Shown one piece after another: positions 1,906 to 24,985 of a stretch of DNA of 32,007 nucleotides. Location of the stretch: positions 1-32,007 of the forward strand of contig JAJYQQ010000004.1 in the NCBI GenBank assembly GCA_021794535.1. The letters are read 5' to 3'. Position 1 is the stretch's first letter. Each line of letters begins with the position of its first letter. The DNA is from a bacterium. Its GTDB lineage: Bacteria; Patescibacteriota; CPR2; UBA1875; JAJYID01. A program made the position numbers and the translations under genes. The notes beneath the pieces were generated by a model that saw only the letters and a program-made list of their open reading frames with translations, did no database searches and was not told the origin of the DNA.

Positions 1906-2133
1906 ACTTGGTTGGCGGGTTTATGGGTTAATTGGTGATTAGGTCATCATGGCTGTCATTCCGGCCAAGCCAGAATTAGTGCTTGGCTTGTTAATATGAG
2001 CGCGAGGTTTGCAATGAAAGGTTTGTTATTCCCGCAGAGGAGGGAATAACAGCGGTAAGATTCTAAATAGCGGTTAAGTGCGAAGCTCGTGATCGGGTAC
2101 AAAAAATTAATAGGATAAAATTACCGGCGAGAA
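1906..2133. repeat. Spacer with two hairpins and a -10-like box before ruvX
   Basis: Two perfect inverted repeats are visible. GCCAAGC pairs with GCTTGGC near 1965-1990. GTTATTCCC at 2025-2033 pairs with GGGAATAAC at 2042-2050. The second resembles the palindromic repeat family with GTCATTCC arms seen elsewhere in the window. No run of T follows either, so they are not clear terminators. TAAAAT near 2115-2120 lies about 14 bases before the ruvX ATG and may be its -10 element. Confidence 0.45.
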
Positions 2134-8965: not shown

Positions 8966-9877
8966 ATGAATATTAAACAAGCTCTTTTGCGGGCAAGCAG
9001 AGAATTAGAGGAAAATAAGGTTTCAGAGCCGGAAAAGTCGGCTGAGTTTTTGCTTCGCCAAGCTTTGGGATCTCAATCCGACACCAGGTGTGGGATTGAA
9101 TGGGATAAGGCAAAGCTGCTGGCAAATCCTGATTATGAATTAAGTTTAGCTCAAGAGAAAAAATTCAGAGAGTTTATCGAAAGGCGCAGGAAACATGAAC
9201 CGGTTTGGTATATAACTGGGAAAATAGAATTTTACGGATTAGATTTGGAAGTGAATGAAAATGTTTTAATACCACGGCCGGAGACGGAATTCTTGGTGGA
9301 AGAAGTTGTGGCTGTCATTCCCGCGGAGGCGGGAATCCAGTCAAATCATATTAAGATATTGGAACTAGGAACCGGCAGTGGAGCAATAACACTTGCGCTA
9401 GCTTCAGAAGTCCGAAGTTCGAAGTCTGATGTCCAGTTCTTTGCCTCGGATATTGTGGAAGAAGCGCTTAAAATTGCCAAAAAAAATGCAAAAAAGTTAA
9501 GACTCGAAAAGGACATTGAATTCCGGCAGAGCGATTTGCTGGACAACTGGGATGGTGAAAAGTTTGATATTATCGTTGCCAATCTTCCATACATTCCGCA
9601 CGAAGATTTAAGTTTTTTGGCACTCGATATACACCGCTGGGAGCCAAGAGTGGCGCTAGACGGTGGGAAAGAAGGCCTGGAAATCTATGCACGGTTATTA
9701 CTACAAGCAAAGGATTATTTAAATGAGAATTATCAGATGTTTTTTGAAATAGGGATTGATCAGGGGGAGAAGTTAAAGAAATTAGCGGAAAAATATTTAC
9801 CGGGGTCGGAGGTGGAAATAAAGAAAGATTACGGAGACATCGACAGGATAGCGATCATTAGCTTCAAAAAGGCGTAA
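8966..9877 (+). CDS. prmC: PrmC-like peptide chain release factor glutamine methyltransferase
   Basis: 303 residues. PrmC methylates the Gln of the GGQ motif in release factors. A helical N-terminal domain carries PVWYITGKIEFYGLDL and VLIPRPETEFLVEE (about 75-113). The methyltransferase motif I is ILELGTGSGAI (about 130-140). The substrate motif, usually NPPY, reads NLPY at 206-209. Residues 117-125 (VIPAEAGIQ) are encoded exactly by a 27-base palindromic repeat that sits in the variable linker before motif I. The start ATG is six bases after the tRNA-Ala CCA end, with no clear Shine-Dalgarno; the only purine-rich sequence lies inside the tRNA 3' arm. Stop TAA. Confidence 0.9.
   Translation: MNIKQALLRASRELEENKVSEPEKSAEFLLRQALGSQSDTRCGIEWDKAKLLANPDYELSLAQEKKFREFIERRRKHEPVWYITGKIEFYGLDLEVNENVLIPRPETEFLVEEVVAVIPAEAGIQSNHIKILELGTGSGAITLALASEVRSSKSDVQFFASDIVEEALKIAKKNAKKLRLEKDIEFRQSDLLDNWDGEKFDIIVANLPYIPHEDLSFLALDIHRWEPRVALDGGKEGLEIYARLLLQAKDYLNENYQMFFEIGIDQGEKLKKLAEKYLPGSEVEIKKDYGDIDRIAIISFKKA
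9314..9340 (+). repeat. 27-base palindromic repeat inside prmC
   Basis: Begins GTCATTCCCGCGG and ends GGCGGGAATCCAG. It is identical to 24912-24938 and to the reverse complement of 15327-15353 and 23600-23626. It is in frame, free of stops, and adds nine residues. Confidence 0.9.
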
Positions 9878-11443: not shown

Positions 11444-11869
11444 ATGCCGCAAAAAATAGGCGAACAAATCGAGGTGATATTTTATCGAAAAGATCCTCAA
11501 AAAGGATTTGAGTTTTTATTGATGAAACGAGTTCCGGAAAGGGGAGGATTTTGGCAGCCAATGACAGGCGGAAGGCATCTTGGCGAAGCCAGGGAAGAAA
11601 CGGCAAAGAGAGAAGCTTTGGAAGAAATCGGGGCGGAAATATCAAATTTATCTGATTGTTTCTATGAGTTTGAGTTTGAGGTGGAAAACGGGATAATTCT
11701 CAAGGAATTTGTTTATGCCTCGGAACTGGATCCGGATTTTGAAGTAAAGCTTTCCGCTGAACACGATAAATATTGCTGGGTCGGCAAAGAAGAAGCGATG
11801 AAATTTTTGAAGTACGATACGAATAAAGAAAGCTTAGAAAAGCTCTGTAAAATATTAAGTAATAATTAA
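11444..11869 (+). CDS. Nudix hydrolase
   Basis: 141 residues. The Nudix box is complete: GGRHLGEAREETAKREALEE runs into IGAE, fitting G-x5-E-x7-R-E-x-x-E-E-x-G with catalytic Glu residues in REALEE. The sequence before it, FWQPMTGG, resembles the FWQSVTGS block of NudB-type dihydroneopterin triphosphate pyrophosphatases, so a nucleoside or pterin triphosphate substrate is possible but unproved. ATG 11444 follows AAGGA with 8 bases between. It is flanked by an acetyltransferase and a broken acyltransferase. A second, unrelated-looking Nudix domain is embedded in leuS 2.7 kb downstream. Stop TAA. Confidence 0.88.
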   Translation: MPQKIGEQIEVIFYRKDPQKGFEFLLMKRVPERGGFWQPMTGGRHLGEAREETAKREALEEIGAEISNLSDCFYEFEFEVENGIILKEFVYASELDPDFEVKLSAEHDKYCWVGKEEAMKFLKYDTNKESLEKLCKILSNN

Positions 11870-11958
11870 TTGAAATCTTATTTTGTAGTAGAAGAAGAAG
11901 TAGCGGCAAAGTTTATCTACTCTTTTAAAAGTTGCACGTTTGTGTGATTATTAAGATT

Positions 11959-12855
11959 ATGGAAAGACCACAAGAATTTGAACAGCCGAGGGAGATTAAA
12001 CGACCGAATAAGCTTGTTGAGTTATCGCAAAAGTGGATAGAGCGGGCAGGTTTTAATTTAAGTGTGCAAGGAGTAGAACACATCCGGGAAATCCCTTCTG
12101 AGAAGAGGGTCATTATAGCATCCTCTCATCTTTCCGACCATGATACGCCAATTACAGTTGCGGCTTTAGGCGATTATTATCCAAATCTTAAGGTTGTTGA
12201 TGAATCTACTCATTACCACTTAAACCAAAATCCGGTCATGTTTGGAGCGAGGAAAATAGCTGGCGAAGAAAATTTCTTGAAAGTTGATATGGATGGAGGA
12301 GATAGTCAGCGAAGAGGTTTATTTAAAAATGAAACTTTTCACAAATGAAAAAAAGCCCTAGAGGATGGAAGCCCACTAGTAATGGCTGCTTATTTTGACC
12401 CTCAGTATGCGGGCGGAAAGTGGGAGTTACCGGGTAGGGCTGGAAATGGGGTGGCATATACTGCTCAAATCACGGAGGGAACAGTTATTTTGCCTGTCGC
12501 TGTAGATATACAAGGGGAACCTTTTGCTATGGGTAAGCCCGACTTAGGTAGGTTAATCGGGAAGGCAGACATCAGGAAAATGAAAGGCGAACAGAAAAAA
12601 GTAACTGTCAATATTGGTAAGCCGATAGTTTTAGAGGACATTCCAGATATAGAGATGATAGAATATGTCATTGGTAAAAGAGAAAAGGGAGAGAACGTTA
12701 CCGTAGAAGAAAGAGAAAAGTTCAAGCTAGTAACCCGGGCGATCAAAGCGCAATCTGCGGAAGTTATGAATGCGATTGCTAGCCTTTTGCCAGAAGAAAA
12801 GAGAGGACCATGGGGTCCTCATGAAGATACAAATTCTGATATCTCAGAGCAATAG
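11959..12855 (+). pseudogene. PlsC-like acyltransferase interrupted by in-frame TGA
   Basis: Two open stretches in the same frame are separated only by TGA at 12346-12348. Read through, they give about 298 residues. The first part has SSHLSDHDTPI, the H-x4-D catalytic motif of glycerolipid acyltransferases. The second has AAYFDPQYAGGKWELPG and ILPVAVDI, matching in position the F-P-E-G-T and P-[VI] blocks, though the first is divergent. The break falls between them at FHK-stop-KKALEDG, in a helix normally continuous. No frameshift is needed. The bases around it are A-rich (TGAAAAAAAG). Either the gene is dead by one point mutation, or UGA is read through, or there is a sequencing error. The second half has an internal ATG (12382) but would lack the catalytic His. 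Confidence 0.7.
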
Positions 12856-12914: not shown

Positions 12915-15900
12915 ATGGCAGAAAAATACGATCACAAGAAAATTGAACAAAAATGGCGGGAAGTTTGGGAGAAAACAGGGATTAACAACACCGACCTAGT
13001 CTCCAAAGATCCCAAATTTTATAACTTAATAATGTTTCCGTATCCAAGCGGGGAATATTTGCATATCGGCCATGCTTATTCAGACATGGGAGCCGATGTT
13101 TACGGCAGGCATAAACAGTTAAACGGGTTTAATGTCTTTATGCCTATCGGTTATGACGCCTTCGGCCTTCCGGCGGAAAACTTTGCTATAAAAGCCGGCG
13201 TAAATCCAAAAGATAGCACGGCGAGCAATATTGAACATGCCGAGAAGCAGCTAAAAAGCTGGGGATGCCTTTTTGACTGGTCTCATAAAATGACGACATC
13301 CGAGCCAAGCTACTACAAATGGACGCAATGGCTGTTTTTGAAATTATACGAGAAGGGATTGGCTTACCAAAAGGAAGCGCCGGTGAACTGGTGCCTAAAG
13401 TGTATGACCGTTTTGGCAAATGAACAAGTAATCGATGGCTTGTGTGAAAGATGCGACGCGGAAGTGATTCAGAAAAATATGAAGCAATGGTTTTTCAAAA
13501 TCACTGATTATGCCGATAGATTAATTAAAGATTTGGACAAGGTCGACTGGCCGGAATCGTCAAAAATCAAACAGAAAAACTGGATTGGCCGGAGCGAAGG
13601 AGTAGAGTTTAAGTTAAAAGTTAAAAATTCAAAATTTCGTCCAGAGGACGATCAGCCTTTGGCTGAAAAAGTTGATGAGGATCTTTCGATTGAGGTATTT
13701 ACGACCCGGATAGATACGGTTTATGGCATGACATATGTCGTTTTGGCGCCGGAGCATCCGTTGGTCGGGAAAATTACAACTCCTGATCAGAAAAAGGAAG
13801 TTGAAAAATATCTCATTCAGTCTCAAAAATTGACAGACATTGAACGCCAATCACTTGAGAAAGAGAAAACAGGGGTCTTCACCGGTTCGTATGCGATAAA
13901 TCCATTCAACGGCGAGAAAGTGCCGGTTTGGATCGCTGATTATGTTTTATATGGCTATGGAACTGGCGCGGTGATGGCTGTTCCGGCTCATGACGAGCGG
14001 GACTTTGAATTTGCGAAGAAATACAAACTACCGACCAGGGAAGCAGTTGCTCCTTATACAAAGTTTGAAACGAAGCCTGACCTGGAAACGGAAGTGCGCG
14101 ATCTCGCGATAGCGGTTGTTCACAATCCGCAAGACAACACTTATCTGTGCTTGGAATGGAAAACAACAAAATGGCGGGCATTTCCATCTGGGGGGACTGA
14201 CGGCGAAGATACTATCACAGCCGCTAAAAGAGAGGTTCTGGAAGAAACCGGCTATAAAAATATTAAATTTGTTAAAGAATTTCGAAATACTATCTTTGAA
14301 GAGTTTTATAGGCCGCATAAAAATTCTAATGTTATTGCCCATTCCATATATTTGCTCTTCGAGCTTGAAAATGATGAGAGGCAGGAAGTAAGCGAAAAAG
14401 AAAAGGCTCAGCATGAAGCGATTTGGGTTAAGGAAAAAGAAGTCGAGAAATTTTTAAATATAAAACATCTGAAGCTTTTCTGGGAATCTTTTCAAGCTGG
14501 AGAAGAAATACTGTTTACTGGTTCCGGGAAGCTTGTAAATTCCGGTGAATTTAGTGGACTGTTCTCGGAAGAAGCGAAGGAAAAGATGGCCGACTGGCTG
14601 GAGAAAAAGAAAGTTGGCAAAACAAAGATAAATTATCGTCTTCACGACTGGTCTATTGGCCGACAGAGATACTGGGGCGATCCGATTCCCATAGTTTACT
14701 GCGAAAAATGCGGAGTTCAGCCAGTGCCAGAGAAGGATTTGCCGGTTAAGCTTCCTGAAAAGATTAAGGATTTCAGGCCAAAAGGCACGGGGAAGGGACC
14801 CTTGGCTAGTGTTCCGGAATTTGTAAATACGACCTGTCCGAAATGCGGCGGAAAAGCCGAGCGCGAAACAGATACTATGGATACATTCGTTGACTCCAGC
14901 TTTTATTATTTGCGTTATCCGAATGTCGGCAATGACAAAGAAATGATGGCGCCGGAAATTACTAAAAAATGGCTGCCGGTGGATATGTATGTCGGCGGCG
15001 CGGAACACGTGACGATGCATTTGCTTTACGCTAGATTTATCACAAAGGTTTTGCATGACGCTAAATTAATTAAATTTGACGAACCATTTATAAAGTTGCG
15101 GCACCAAGGCATGATTCTCGGCCCTGACGGTAAGAAAATGTCCAAATCCAAGGGAAACATCATTATTCCGGATGAGGTTGTCAGAGAACACGGAGCCGAT
15201 GTTTTCCGGACATACATTCTATTTATGGGCAGATTTGAGGATGGCGGGCCATGGAACCCGAAAGGGCTAGTCGGAGTGAAGAGATTTTTGGAGAAGGTCT
15301 GGAAGATGTATAAATATTTTGAAGGTCTGGATTCCCGCCTCCGCGGGAATGACAAGAGGGGCGGGAATGACAAAGCGGTTGGCTGGGCAAAAGTTTCCAA
15401 TGCTGAAGTGCAAGCAAAGATGGCCAGAGCCATTAAAAAAGTCGGTGAAGATATTGAAGAGTTTAAATTTAATACGGCCATTGCCGCTCTGATGAAGCTA
15501 ATGAATGAGATGTCTGGAGGAGAAAGGGATTTCTCCGCTCGTCGCTCCGCGAAGTCGGTCGGAATGACAAATCGGGGCGTTTCAAAGGAAGACTATGAGA
15601 AACTTTTGATTATTTTATCTCCGTTTGCTCCTTTTATGGCGGAAGAACTCTGGGAGAGACTTGGCAATAAAGACAGTATTCACGTTCAGGGCTGGCCGGA
15701 ATACGACGAGAAACTGATTCAAGAAGAGACTGTAACTATTGCCATTCAGGTCAACGGAAAAGTCAGGGACCAAGTTGTGGCAACCGTGGAAACCAATCAA
15801 GACGAGGCGCTTGAGCTTGCCAAAACAAGCGGAAAAATCCAAAAATATCTGGACGGGAAAGAAATCAAGAAGGTAATTTACGTTAAGGGCAAGCTTCTCA

Positions 15901-15917
15901 GCCTTGTAGTCAGCTAG
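12915..15917 (+). CDS. leuS: Leucyl-tRNA synthetase with inserted Nudix domain
   Basis: 1000 residues, longer than the usual 800-880. HIGH is at 50-53 (YLHIGH), KMSKS at 741-745, and zinc-ribbon cysteines appear in CLKCMTVLANEQVIDGLCERC and again in CEKCGVQ...CPKCGG. The CP1 editing domain contains TTRIDTVYGMTYVVLAPEH and PAHDERDFEFAKKY. Directly after that, residues about 376-530 form an extra domain with Nudix box SGGTDGEDTITAAKREVLEE then TGY (425-447): Glu431 and REVLEETG are intact, and the first Gly of the box is Ser. The normal chain resumes at FTGSGKLVNSGEF. Two palindromic repeats encode residues 805-819 and about 870-886 in anticodon-domain loops. The enzyme charges tRNA-Leu. What the Nudix part does is unknown. 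Confidence 0.95.
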   Translation: MAEKYDHKKIEQKWREVWEKTGINNTDLVSKDPKFYNLIMFPYPSGEYLHIGHAYSDMGADVYGRHKQLNGFNVFMPIGYDAFGLPAENFAIKAGVNPKDSTASNIEHAEKQLKSWGCLFDWSHKMTTSEPSYYKWTQWLFLKLYEKGLAYQKEAPVNWCLKCMTVLANEQVIDGLCERCDAEVIQKNMKQWFFKITDYADRLIKDLDKVDWPESSKIKQKNWIGRSEGVEFKLKVKNSKFRPEDDQPLAEKVDEDLSIEVFTTRIDTVYGMTYVVLAPEHPLVGKITTPDQKKEVEKYLIQSQKLTDIERQSLEKEKTGVFTGSYAINPFNGEKVPVWIADYVLYGYGTGAVMAVPAHDERDFEFAKKYKLPTREAVAPYTKFETKPDLETEVRDLAIAVVHNPQDNTYLCLEWKTTKWRAFPSGGTDGEDTITAAKREVLEETGYKNIKFVKEFRNTIFEEFYRPHKNSNVIAHSIYLLFELENDERQEVSEKEKAQHEAIWVKEKEVEKFLNIKHLKLFWESFQAGEEILFTGSGKLVNSGEFSGLFSEEAKEKMADWLEKKKVGKTKINYRLHDWSIGRQRYWGDPIPIVYCEKCGVQPVPEKDLPVKLPEKIKDFRPKGTGKGPLASVPEFVNTTCPKCGGKAERETDTMDTFVDSSFYYLRYPNVGNDKEMMAPEITKKWLPVDMYVGGAEHVTMHLLYARFITKVLHDAKLIKFDEPFIKLRHQGMILGPDGKKMSKSKGNIIIPDEVVREHGADVFRTYILFMGRFEDGGPWNPKGLVGVKRFLEKVWKMYKYFEGLDSRLRGNDKRGGNDKAVGWAKVSNAEVQAKMARAIKKVGEDIEEFKFNTAIAALMKLMNEMSGGERDFSARRSAKSVGMTNRGVSKEDYEKLLIILSPFAPFMAEELWERLGNKDSIHVQGWPEYDEKLIQEETVTIAIQVNGKVRDQVVATVETNQDEALELAKTSGKIQKYLDGKEIKKVIYVKGKLLSLVVS
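15327..15374 (-). repeat. 27-base palindromic repeat plus half copy inside leuS
   Basis: 15327-15353 is the exact reverse complement of the prmC element. A partial second arm (GCGGGAATGACAAA) follows to 15374. Both are in frame and encode LDSRLRGND and KRGGNDK. Confidence 0.9.
15523..15570 (+). repeat. AAAGGGAT...GGAATGACA repeat inside leuS
   Basis: Starts AAAGGGATTTCTCCGCT and ends CGGTCGGAATGACAA. Related copies lie in spacers at 16048-16096 and 20357-20405. It encodes about 16 residues (RDFSARRSAKSVGMTN) in a loop before the conserved LLIILSPFAPFMAEELW. Confidence 0.85.
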
Positions 15918-23436: not shown

Positions 23437-23679
23437 TTCTAATCAAAACTCATTAAATTTCAATTGACTTTTGGGTATATATTGACTATAATTATTTCAG
23501 TAAGTAAATCATTAACTCAGTAATACGGATGATCCCACATTCATAATTTGACTGGATTCCCTGCCGGCAGGCAGACCGCCGGAGTTTATCCTCTGAAGTC
23601 TGGATTCCCGCCTCCGCGGGAATGACAAAGGAGGGCGGGAATGACAGCGTGCGGGGTCACAATTACAGAAGGAGCAGGA
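23437..23679. repeat. Spacer with palindromic repeats upstream of rpsP
   Basis: An AT-rich part (to about 23550) is followed by CCCTGCCGGCAGGCAG, then the exact 27-base element in reverse orientation at 23600-23626, and a partial arm to 23645. AAGGAG at 23669-23674 is the rpsP ribosome site. An open frame extending upstream of rpsP through this repeat is not genic. Confidence 0.75.
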
Positions 23680-24864: not shown

Positions 24865-24985
24865 AGGTGGCCTGTCATCCCCGTTCTCTCTTGTCATTCC
24901 CGCCCTCCTTTGTCATTCCCGCGGAGGCGGGAATCCAGACTTCGGAGGATAAACTCCGGCGGGAATCCAGTCATCAGAATTTCTT
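24865..24985. repeat. GTCATTCC palindromes after khpA
   Basis: Contains three partial GTCAT starts and the exact 27-base element at 24912-24938 in + orientation, followed by ACTTCGGAGGATAAACTCCGGCGGGAATCCAG, a half copy fused to a second palindrome. No gene. Confidence 0.8.

Follow-up and report, generated by a model that had tools for sequence, protein, structure and literature searches.

The window, by which we mean the whole 32,007-nucleotide stretch of DNA analysed here, encodes a leucyl-tRNA synthetase (LeuRS) that carries a Nudix hydrolase domain just past its editing motif, and comparison with related LeuRS indicates that this catalytic domain has been swapped between close relatives while the synthetase around it remained nearly unchanged. 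Unrelated enzymes substitute for it in other LeuRS. Synthetases are among the most conserved and slowest-evolving proteins, and their accessory domains are usually deemed stable. The explanation that we favour, and regard as probable from the sequence comparisons below, is that the insert is an independent, tethered pyrophosphohydrolase housed in an insertion-tolerant socket of class Ia synthetases, and not a part of editing.

The inserted domain and its host gene

The host gene, the domain within it and the motifs discussed below are the following:

12915..15917, + strand: leuS, bacterial-type leucyl-tRNA synthetase and host of the insert (1000 aa; TIGR00396 984 bits, cut-off 548)
13062..13073, + strand: HIGH motif of the synthetic site (HIGH, aa 50-53; aa 50, 52 and 53 near-invariant, n=116 LeuRS)
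13575..14054, + strand: CP1 editing domain, first part (aa 221-380; PF13603 match aa 221-386)
13989..14003, + strand: editing motif HDERD, intact (aa 359-363; H359, D360, R362 and D363 invariant)
14055..14507, + strand: inserted Nudix domain, interpreted as an exchangeable cassette (aa 381-531; Pfam NUDIX 49.8 bits and family identity profile)
14190..14255, + strand: Nudix box GGTDGEDTITAAKREVLEETGY (aa 426-447; E431, E440, E443 and E444 intact, loop one residue short)
14304..14321, + strand: X-loop FYRPHK (aa 464-469; aromatics 17-18 residues past the box, Lys at 22)
14508..14594, + strand: LeuRS chain continues (FTGSGKLVNSGEFSGL...; alignment to 1h3n and to insert-free LeuRS in the same order)
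15135..15149, + strand: KMSKS motif (aa 741-745; K741, M742, S743 and K744 near-invariant)

The Pfam NUDIX model (PF00293) matches aa 398-513 (49.8 bits, E 4.5e-13, cut-off 21.1, profile positions 6-122 of 134). The cassette begins 11 residues past the intact editing motif HDERDFEFAKKY. Alignment to the Thermus LeuRS (1h3n) stops at aa 378 and restarts at 534, and identity to the LeuRS of the same family, taken in 20-residue steps, drops from 90-95% through the editing motif to 12-25% just beyond it and recovers at FTGSGKLVNSGEF. A sequence-only reading of this DNA had placed a Nudix insert directly past the editing motif, at 14031-14511; the Pfam match and the break against 1h3n at aa 378-534 bear this out, and the extent given corresponds to the cassette at 14055-14507 plus the retained LPTREAVAP linker. 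Since a match this strong recurs at one site in dozens of independent LeuRS genes, it is not, judging from these comparisons, a product of chance. An assembly join was considered as a source of the insert and rejected, because the domain is present also in two members of the genus, L010 and L011, with copies 83-85% identical to it.

The host itself looks like a normal synthetase, editing-competent by its motifs, because HDERD, the T-rich motif and KMSKS are intact. It is recognised by the NCBIfam equivalog TIGR00396 with the HIGH, KMSKS and editing motifs all present; T263, T264, R265 and D267 of the T-rich motif are near-invariant in the 116 aligned LeuRS, and H359, D360, R362 and D363 are invariant in LeuRS both with and without the insert. 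This leuS is the only LeuRS gene found in the genome of the window, an 807-aa ORF on another contig (C40) that was considered as a second one being ValRS-like by inspection.

The Nudix box of the window has R439-E440-V-L-E443-E444-T-G-Y together with E431, in the canonical E-x7-RE..EE.G spacing. Set against the consensus GX5EX7REUXEEXGU, the part EX7REUXEEXGU is exact, whereas the first spacer, from the first box Gly to E431, is x4: the window and its genus mates have Gx4E and not Gx5E, while most other inserts have x5. The earlier statement that the catalytic residues stand in the right register is therefore correct for Glu431, REVLEETGY and the spacing between them, and has to be amended for the box loop, which is one residue short. 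Among 76 inserted Nudix domains, the positions of E440 and E444 are conserved in all 76, that of E443 in 75 and the GG in 73-76; at the position of E431, 65 have Glu, 5 have Asp and 4 have Gln, and all four box Glu are found in 65/76. A loss of the catalytic Glu in most homologues, which by its own terms would have spoken against the sequence-only reading, is not seen among these 76 inserts. In close pairs, dN/dS of the Nudix part is about 0.01-0.05 and similar to that of the LeuRS flanks (0.042 for L010/L011, dS 0.26; 0.013 for L018/L150, dS 0.90). Purifying selection and retention of the Glu are what would be expected of an active enzyme, short of proof, and the insert is a genuine Nudix hydrolase domain, very probably a catalytically active one, so that the earlier suggestion of catalysis as a possibility can be raised to a probability. 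Activity could nevertheless be altered in the clade formed by the window, L050 and L039, given the short box loop and the lack of a Glu at the E431 position in L050 and L039, which are the near relatives of the window's Nudix domain.

Distribution, replacement and other occupants of the loop

We searched for the insert with a profile of the flank plus the Nudix domain, counting contiguous LeuRS-Nudix-LeuRS matches. Carriers were found in 49/379 sampled Patescibacteria (about 13%), from 29 families, and in 5/194 genomes of one DPANN archaeal phylum, there in bacterial-type LeuRS; these frequencies are lower bounds because the E-value limits of most searches miss very divergent inserts. None of 151 Chloroflexota and none of 199 Bacillota had the insert, in searches with no positive control inside either phylum. 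Across 84,980 species genomes, the best 80 loci came only from Patescibacteria, candidate-phylum or unnamed bacteria, and DPANN. The distribution is patchy even within a genus, with the insert in G235 and a linker of 8-10 residues in its place in G209 and G259. The mention, in the earlier reading, of similar inserts in some Patescibacteria is confirmed by the 49/379 genomes with a Nudix insert. Its guess that the insert might be lineage-wide fails, given the patchy presence in about 13% of the sampled Patescibacteria and the differences between LeuRS of one genus.

The clearest case of exchange is that of the window itself. Compared with its family (L012, L013 and L014), the LeuRS flanks are 82-86% identical and the Nudix domains only 30-35%; compared with its genus mates, the Nudix domains are 83-85% and the flanks 78-85% identical. 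An inherited domain diverges no more quickly than LeuRS does, and identity this low within the family therefore implies replacement. A distant LeuRS, L050 (flanks 58% and 44% identical), has a Nudix domain 57% identical to that of the window. The tree of the Nudix domains places the window with L039 and L050 at 99 support, apart from the window's family, and an AU test on the Nudix data rejects a clade of the six family members (p 1.1e-07). From these alignments and trees we conclude that the window's Nudix domain was replaced within its family. When presence of the Nudix domain is mapped onto a tree of 181 LeuRS bodies, from which the insert was left out, at least 39 changes are needed, 34 of them forced by well-supported branches; the tree was made with FastTree on a carrier-enriched sample and the counts are approximate, the conclusion that changes were many being insensitive to this. 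In the window, GC3 is 0.37 in the insert and 0.48 in the flanks, a difference that we do not take as a sign of recent import, since GC3 of insert and host correlate at 0.81 across carriers. Two further observations concern relatives of this cassette. The contig of L039 appears to be a perfect palindrome (reading either strand gives the same 1257-aa ORF at an identical offset) and is probably an assembly artefact; L039 and L049 have an extra insert right after the Nudix cassette (after the INS motif), 'NTKTPE...GSEDCYP'.

The same LeuRS site holds other domains in other genomes: a SAM methyltransferase in L172, a Ser_hydrolase in L179, a Nudix plus a HAD phosphatase in L165, a HAD in L241, and a nucleotidyltransferase in L069 and, weakly, in L109. 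At nine loci (L022, L072, L100, L103, L175, L177, L183, L191 and L206) the domain at this first site has no matched family, and five representatives gave no Pfam match above cut-off; it is about 100-120 aa long, has motifs like GFWNEF...FIFKHKD and occurs in LeuRS of Patescibacteria and DPANN, this grouping having been made by eye. Other sites and other synthetases are also occupied. The LeuRS of L157 has two different Nudix domains, one of them on the N-terminal side of CP1; in that of L168 the Nudix domain precedes the editing domain; L169 is a ValRS with a Nudix domain in the metal-binding region. The IleRS of L170:3141-7772 contains a Ser hydrolase, a Nudix and a His phosphatase, and the ValRS of L245:2327-6157 a HAD, a Ser hydrolase and a His phosphatase, all as inserts. 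The LeuRS of L161:677-6061, with 1795 aa (TIGR00396 800 bits) and inserts comprising a HAD, two Ham1/ITPase-like domains, a Nudix and a nucleotidyltransferase, is possibly the most decorated synthetase in the set.

A semi-independent check was made by counting the hosts of a different family, PF06821 (Ser_hydrolase), in 295 Patescibacteria. Among the matches listed, 20 lie in frames of at least 900 aa, and their hosts are 17 LeuRS, 1 IleRS, 1 ValRS and 1 other protein, which suggests that synthetases, LeuRS above all, are the favoured hosts of this family in long frames. Ham1, taken as a second test family, was mostly standalone, with few large fusions; one fusion outside the synthetases is that of Ham1 (XTP/dITP pyrophosphatase) with an IMPDH/GMP-reductase-like part (L248:2258-4555 in G279, 766 aa), and G146 has a similar 759-aa ORF. 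It is an even bet, in our judgement, that the class Ia synthetases of Patescibacteria, chiefly LeuRS, act as a general chassis offering several sockets, and that small enzyme genes (Nudix, HAD, Ham1/ITPase, Ser hydrolase, His phosphatase, methyltransferase, nucleotidyltransferase) enter these and are traded horizontally, the LeuRS of L161 being the extreme among those seen.

The inserted Nudix domains also stand apart from ordinary Nudix proteins. With a Nudix-only profile run on the 379 genomes, scores of about 89-205 bits occur almost only inside class Ia synthetases, the exceptions being a standalone copy in G278 and a broken one in G078, whereas ordinary standalone Nudix domains score from 78 bits downward. 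The inserts hence form their own Nudix subfamily, nearly always within class Ia synthetases. In agreement with this, in the Nudix tree about 71/76 inserts of the first site, together with L157A, L168 and L169 from other sites, fall in one group (support 85, weak); L064, L065, L066, L166 and L162 may represent separate insertions, deep support in the tree being weak. The standalone copy of synthetase type in G278 (L167:2065-2625) adjoins a TatD-like gene (by inspection) and may be a donor or an escaped cassette.

Passenger enzyme or part of the synthetase

If the socket explanation is right, the loop that closes the CP1 editing domain on its C-terminal side tolerates insertions, and the Nudix cassette in it would fold independently on the surface of LeuRS and hydrolyse a nucleoside-diphosphate-linked small molecule, as a house-cleaning or signalling accessory. 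LeuRS would serve mainly as an essential, always-expressed carrier, and cassettes might move by DNA uptake followed by recombination between the conserved flanks. That the domain has no part in editing or charging is suggested by insert-free sister LeuRS that look complete, by unrelated enzymes that replace it and by the presence of the same subfamily elsewhere. The contrary possibility, that the Nudix domain takes part in the chemistry or quality control of LeuRS and hydrolyses Leu-AMP, a misactivated adenylate or LeuRS-made Ap4A by the editing pocket, agrees with its location directly past the editing motif, with its conserved catalytic residues and with the near-confinement of the subfamily to LeuRS, apart from one case each in IleRS and ValRS, these three synthetases being editing enzymes. 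We nonetheless consider it unlikely, because sister LeuRS without a Nudix domain retain the same editing motif, others have a methyltransferase, Ser hydrolase, HAD or nucleotidyltransferase at the very same site, and Nudix domains also occur elsewhere, in L157 and L168 on the N-terminal flank of CP1 and in L169 within the metal-binding region of a ValRS. For the same reasons, namely a subfamily shared with other LeuRS sites, ValRS and IleRS, and unrelated enzymes filling the same loop in sister LeuRS, the earlier suggestion that the domain owes its role to lying next to the editing pocket finds no support. The near-confinement to synthetases could still mean that a tie to aminoacylation is understated when the domain is described as an independent passenger.

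Frequent loss or replacement indicates that the domain is dispensable to LeuRS, and many different domains are tolerated at the site, as would be the case if a chance insertion had left a passive spacer or neutral hitchhiker that LeuRS tolerates and whose activity is not selected. This is quite improbable: Glu that are invariant across very divergent copies, and dN/dS of 0.01-0.05, point to selection on the enzyme itself. Catalytic domains come and go quickly on a single essential target, and class Ia synthetases are preferred as hosts, which might instead reflect an arms race in which decorated synthetases resist a LeuRS-directed antimicrobial, the insert destroying a nucleotide-like inhibitor or blocking its binding. 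We give this very little credence, since no inhibitor, producer or immunity locus was seen and Ser hydrolases and methyltransferases, which have no obvious link to adenylate analogues, are used too. Least credible of all, and already contradicted, is one ancient insertion in the ancestor of Patescibacteria followed by vertical descent, fast evolution and many losses. The one group of about 71/76 first-site inserts, weakly supported at 85, allows a single origin of the subfamily. The Nudix tree, however, conflicts with that of LeuRS (AU p 1.1e-07); the domain is as slow as LeuRS when inherited (83-85% vs 78-85%), so that 30-35% means replacement; one LeuRS has two different Nudix domains (L157); and LeuRS of DPANN are carriers too.

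Candidate substrate and relation to known systems

Ap4A-type molecules are products of the synthetases themselves. The X-loop of the 76 inserts has aromatic residues at two positions (65/76 and 70/76) and a Lys (72/76), a pattern that is found in 69/75 inserts vs 9/30 standalone Nudix domains, and the window's aromatics, F464 and Y465, lie at +17 and +18 after the Nudix box. In Nudix hydrolases the X-loop contacts the substrate, and a Tyr about 16-18 residues past the box, in contact with the adenine, marks the dinucleoside polyphosphate hydrolases (PMC5389931). With an X-loop aromatic where those hydrolases have theirs, the insert has Ap4A-type molecules as its first substrate candidate, one that we put forward with more doubt than conviction: the argument is a weak one from position and is the sole hint of a substrate. 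Models of known families do not identify the insert further. No curated Nudix subfamily fits; the best NCBIfam scores, those of RppH, are 27 bits (NF001936, cut-off 116) and 26 bits (NF001938, cut-off 118), those of NudE, NudI, MutT and other named Nudix subfamilies are all far under cut-off, and the cut-off is reached by no family model. A single-sequence search of solved structures gave weak matches only, and the best hit of a profile search was 2azw (53 bits), named merely a MutT/nudix family protein. With the Nudix hydrolases (PF00293: MutT, RppH, Ap4A hydrolases) the insert has all catalytic Glu of the box in common, and its X-loop aromatics at +17/+18 may correspond to the one in dinucleoside polyphosphate hydrolases; it differs in its own, synthetase-borne subfamily and its short box loop.

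Nudix domains, LeuRS and enzyme-bearing synthetases were all known already. The window's LeuRS shares with other bacterial LeuRS (TIGR00396; 1h3n) its whole body, HIGH and KMSKS, and the editing domain with T-rich and HDxRD motifs, but has a Nudix domain of about 150 aa in place of the linker of known LeuRS, which is about 15-30 residues long. A parallel, from which it follows that such combinations had been met before, is ileS_w_GNAT (NF040702), an IleRS with an N-acetyltransferase, in which an enzyme domain is likewise added to a class Ia synthetase; host and enzyme are different there (the window's LeuRS scores 85 bits against a cut-off of 1999), and the Patescibacteria case comprises many enzyme families, many sites and frequent exchange. 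The CP1/PF13603 editing domain has been described as a recurrent, insertion-only insert in synthetases, in a work that does not mention Nudix (PMC13114784); a domain-in-domain synthetase is common to both, with the difference that the editing domain is the insert there and is interrupted by an enzyme here. A literature search for Nudix or other enzyme inserts in LeuRS or in synthetases of Patescibacteria, or for an exchangeable socket, found none among open-licence papers, which is weak evidence of novelty.

If the socket exists, it would mean horizontal exchange below the level of the gene in the largest group of bacteria with reduced genomes, enzymes hidden in synthetases would be missed by annotation pipelines, and the loops would be natural insertion points for protein engineering. 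It would also open a direct test of the Nudix role, in a setting where selection keeps the position and not the gene. Were the chassis interpretation correct as well, an essential gene would offer reduced genomes a way to keep accessory enzymes and to trade them.

Some minor observations concern the window and its genome (G000), which has 14 Nudix domains in 0.9 Mb. A standalone Nudix protein at 11444-11869 of the window resembles dihydroneopterin triphosphate diphosphatase, below cut-off. Upstream of leuS, at 11932-12855, two ORFs in the same frame, separated by one in-frame stop (12346-12348), were read as a single gene that a nonsense change or a sequencing error has split; it has no Pfam match and is perhaps an acyltransferase by inspection. 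Five copies of the palindromic repeat TTCCCGCCTCCGCGGGAATGAC lie in the window (2025-2050, 9314-9339, 15328-15353, 23601-23626 and 24912-24937), giving 10 strand matches vs 0.01 expected. One of them, at 15328, falls within leuS, where its translation belongs to DSRLRGNDK, a second, small insert in the anticodon-binding region.
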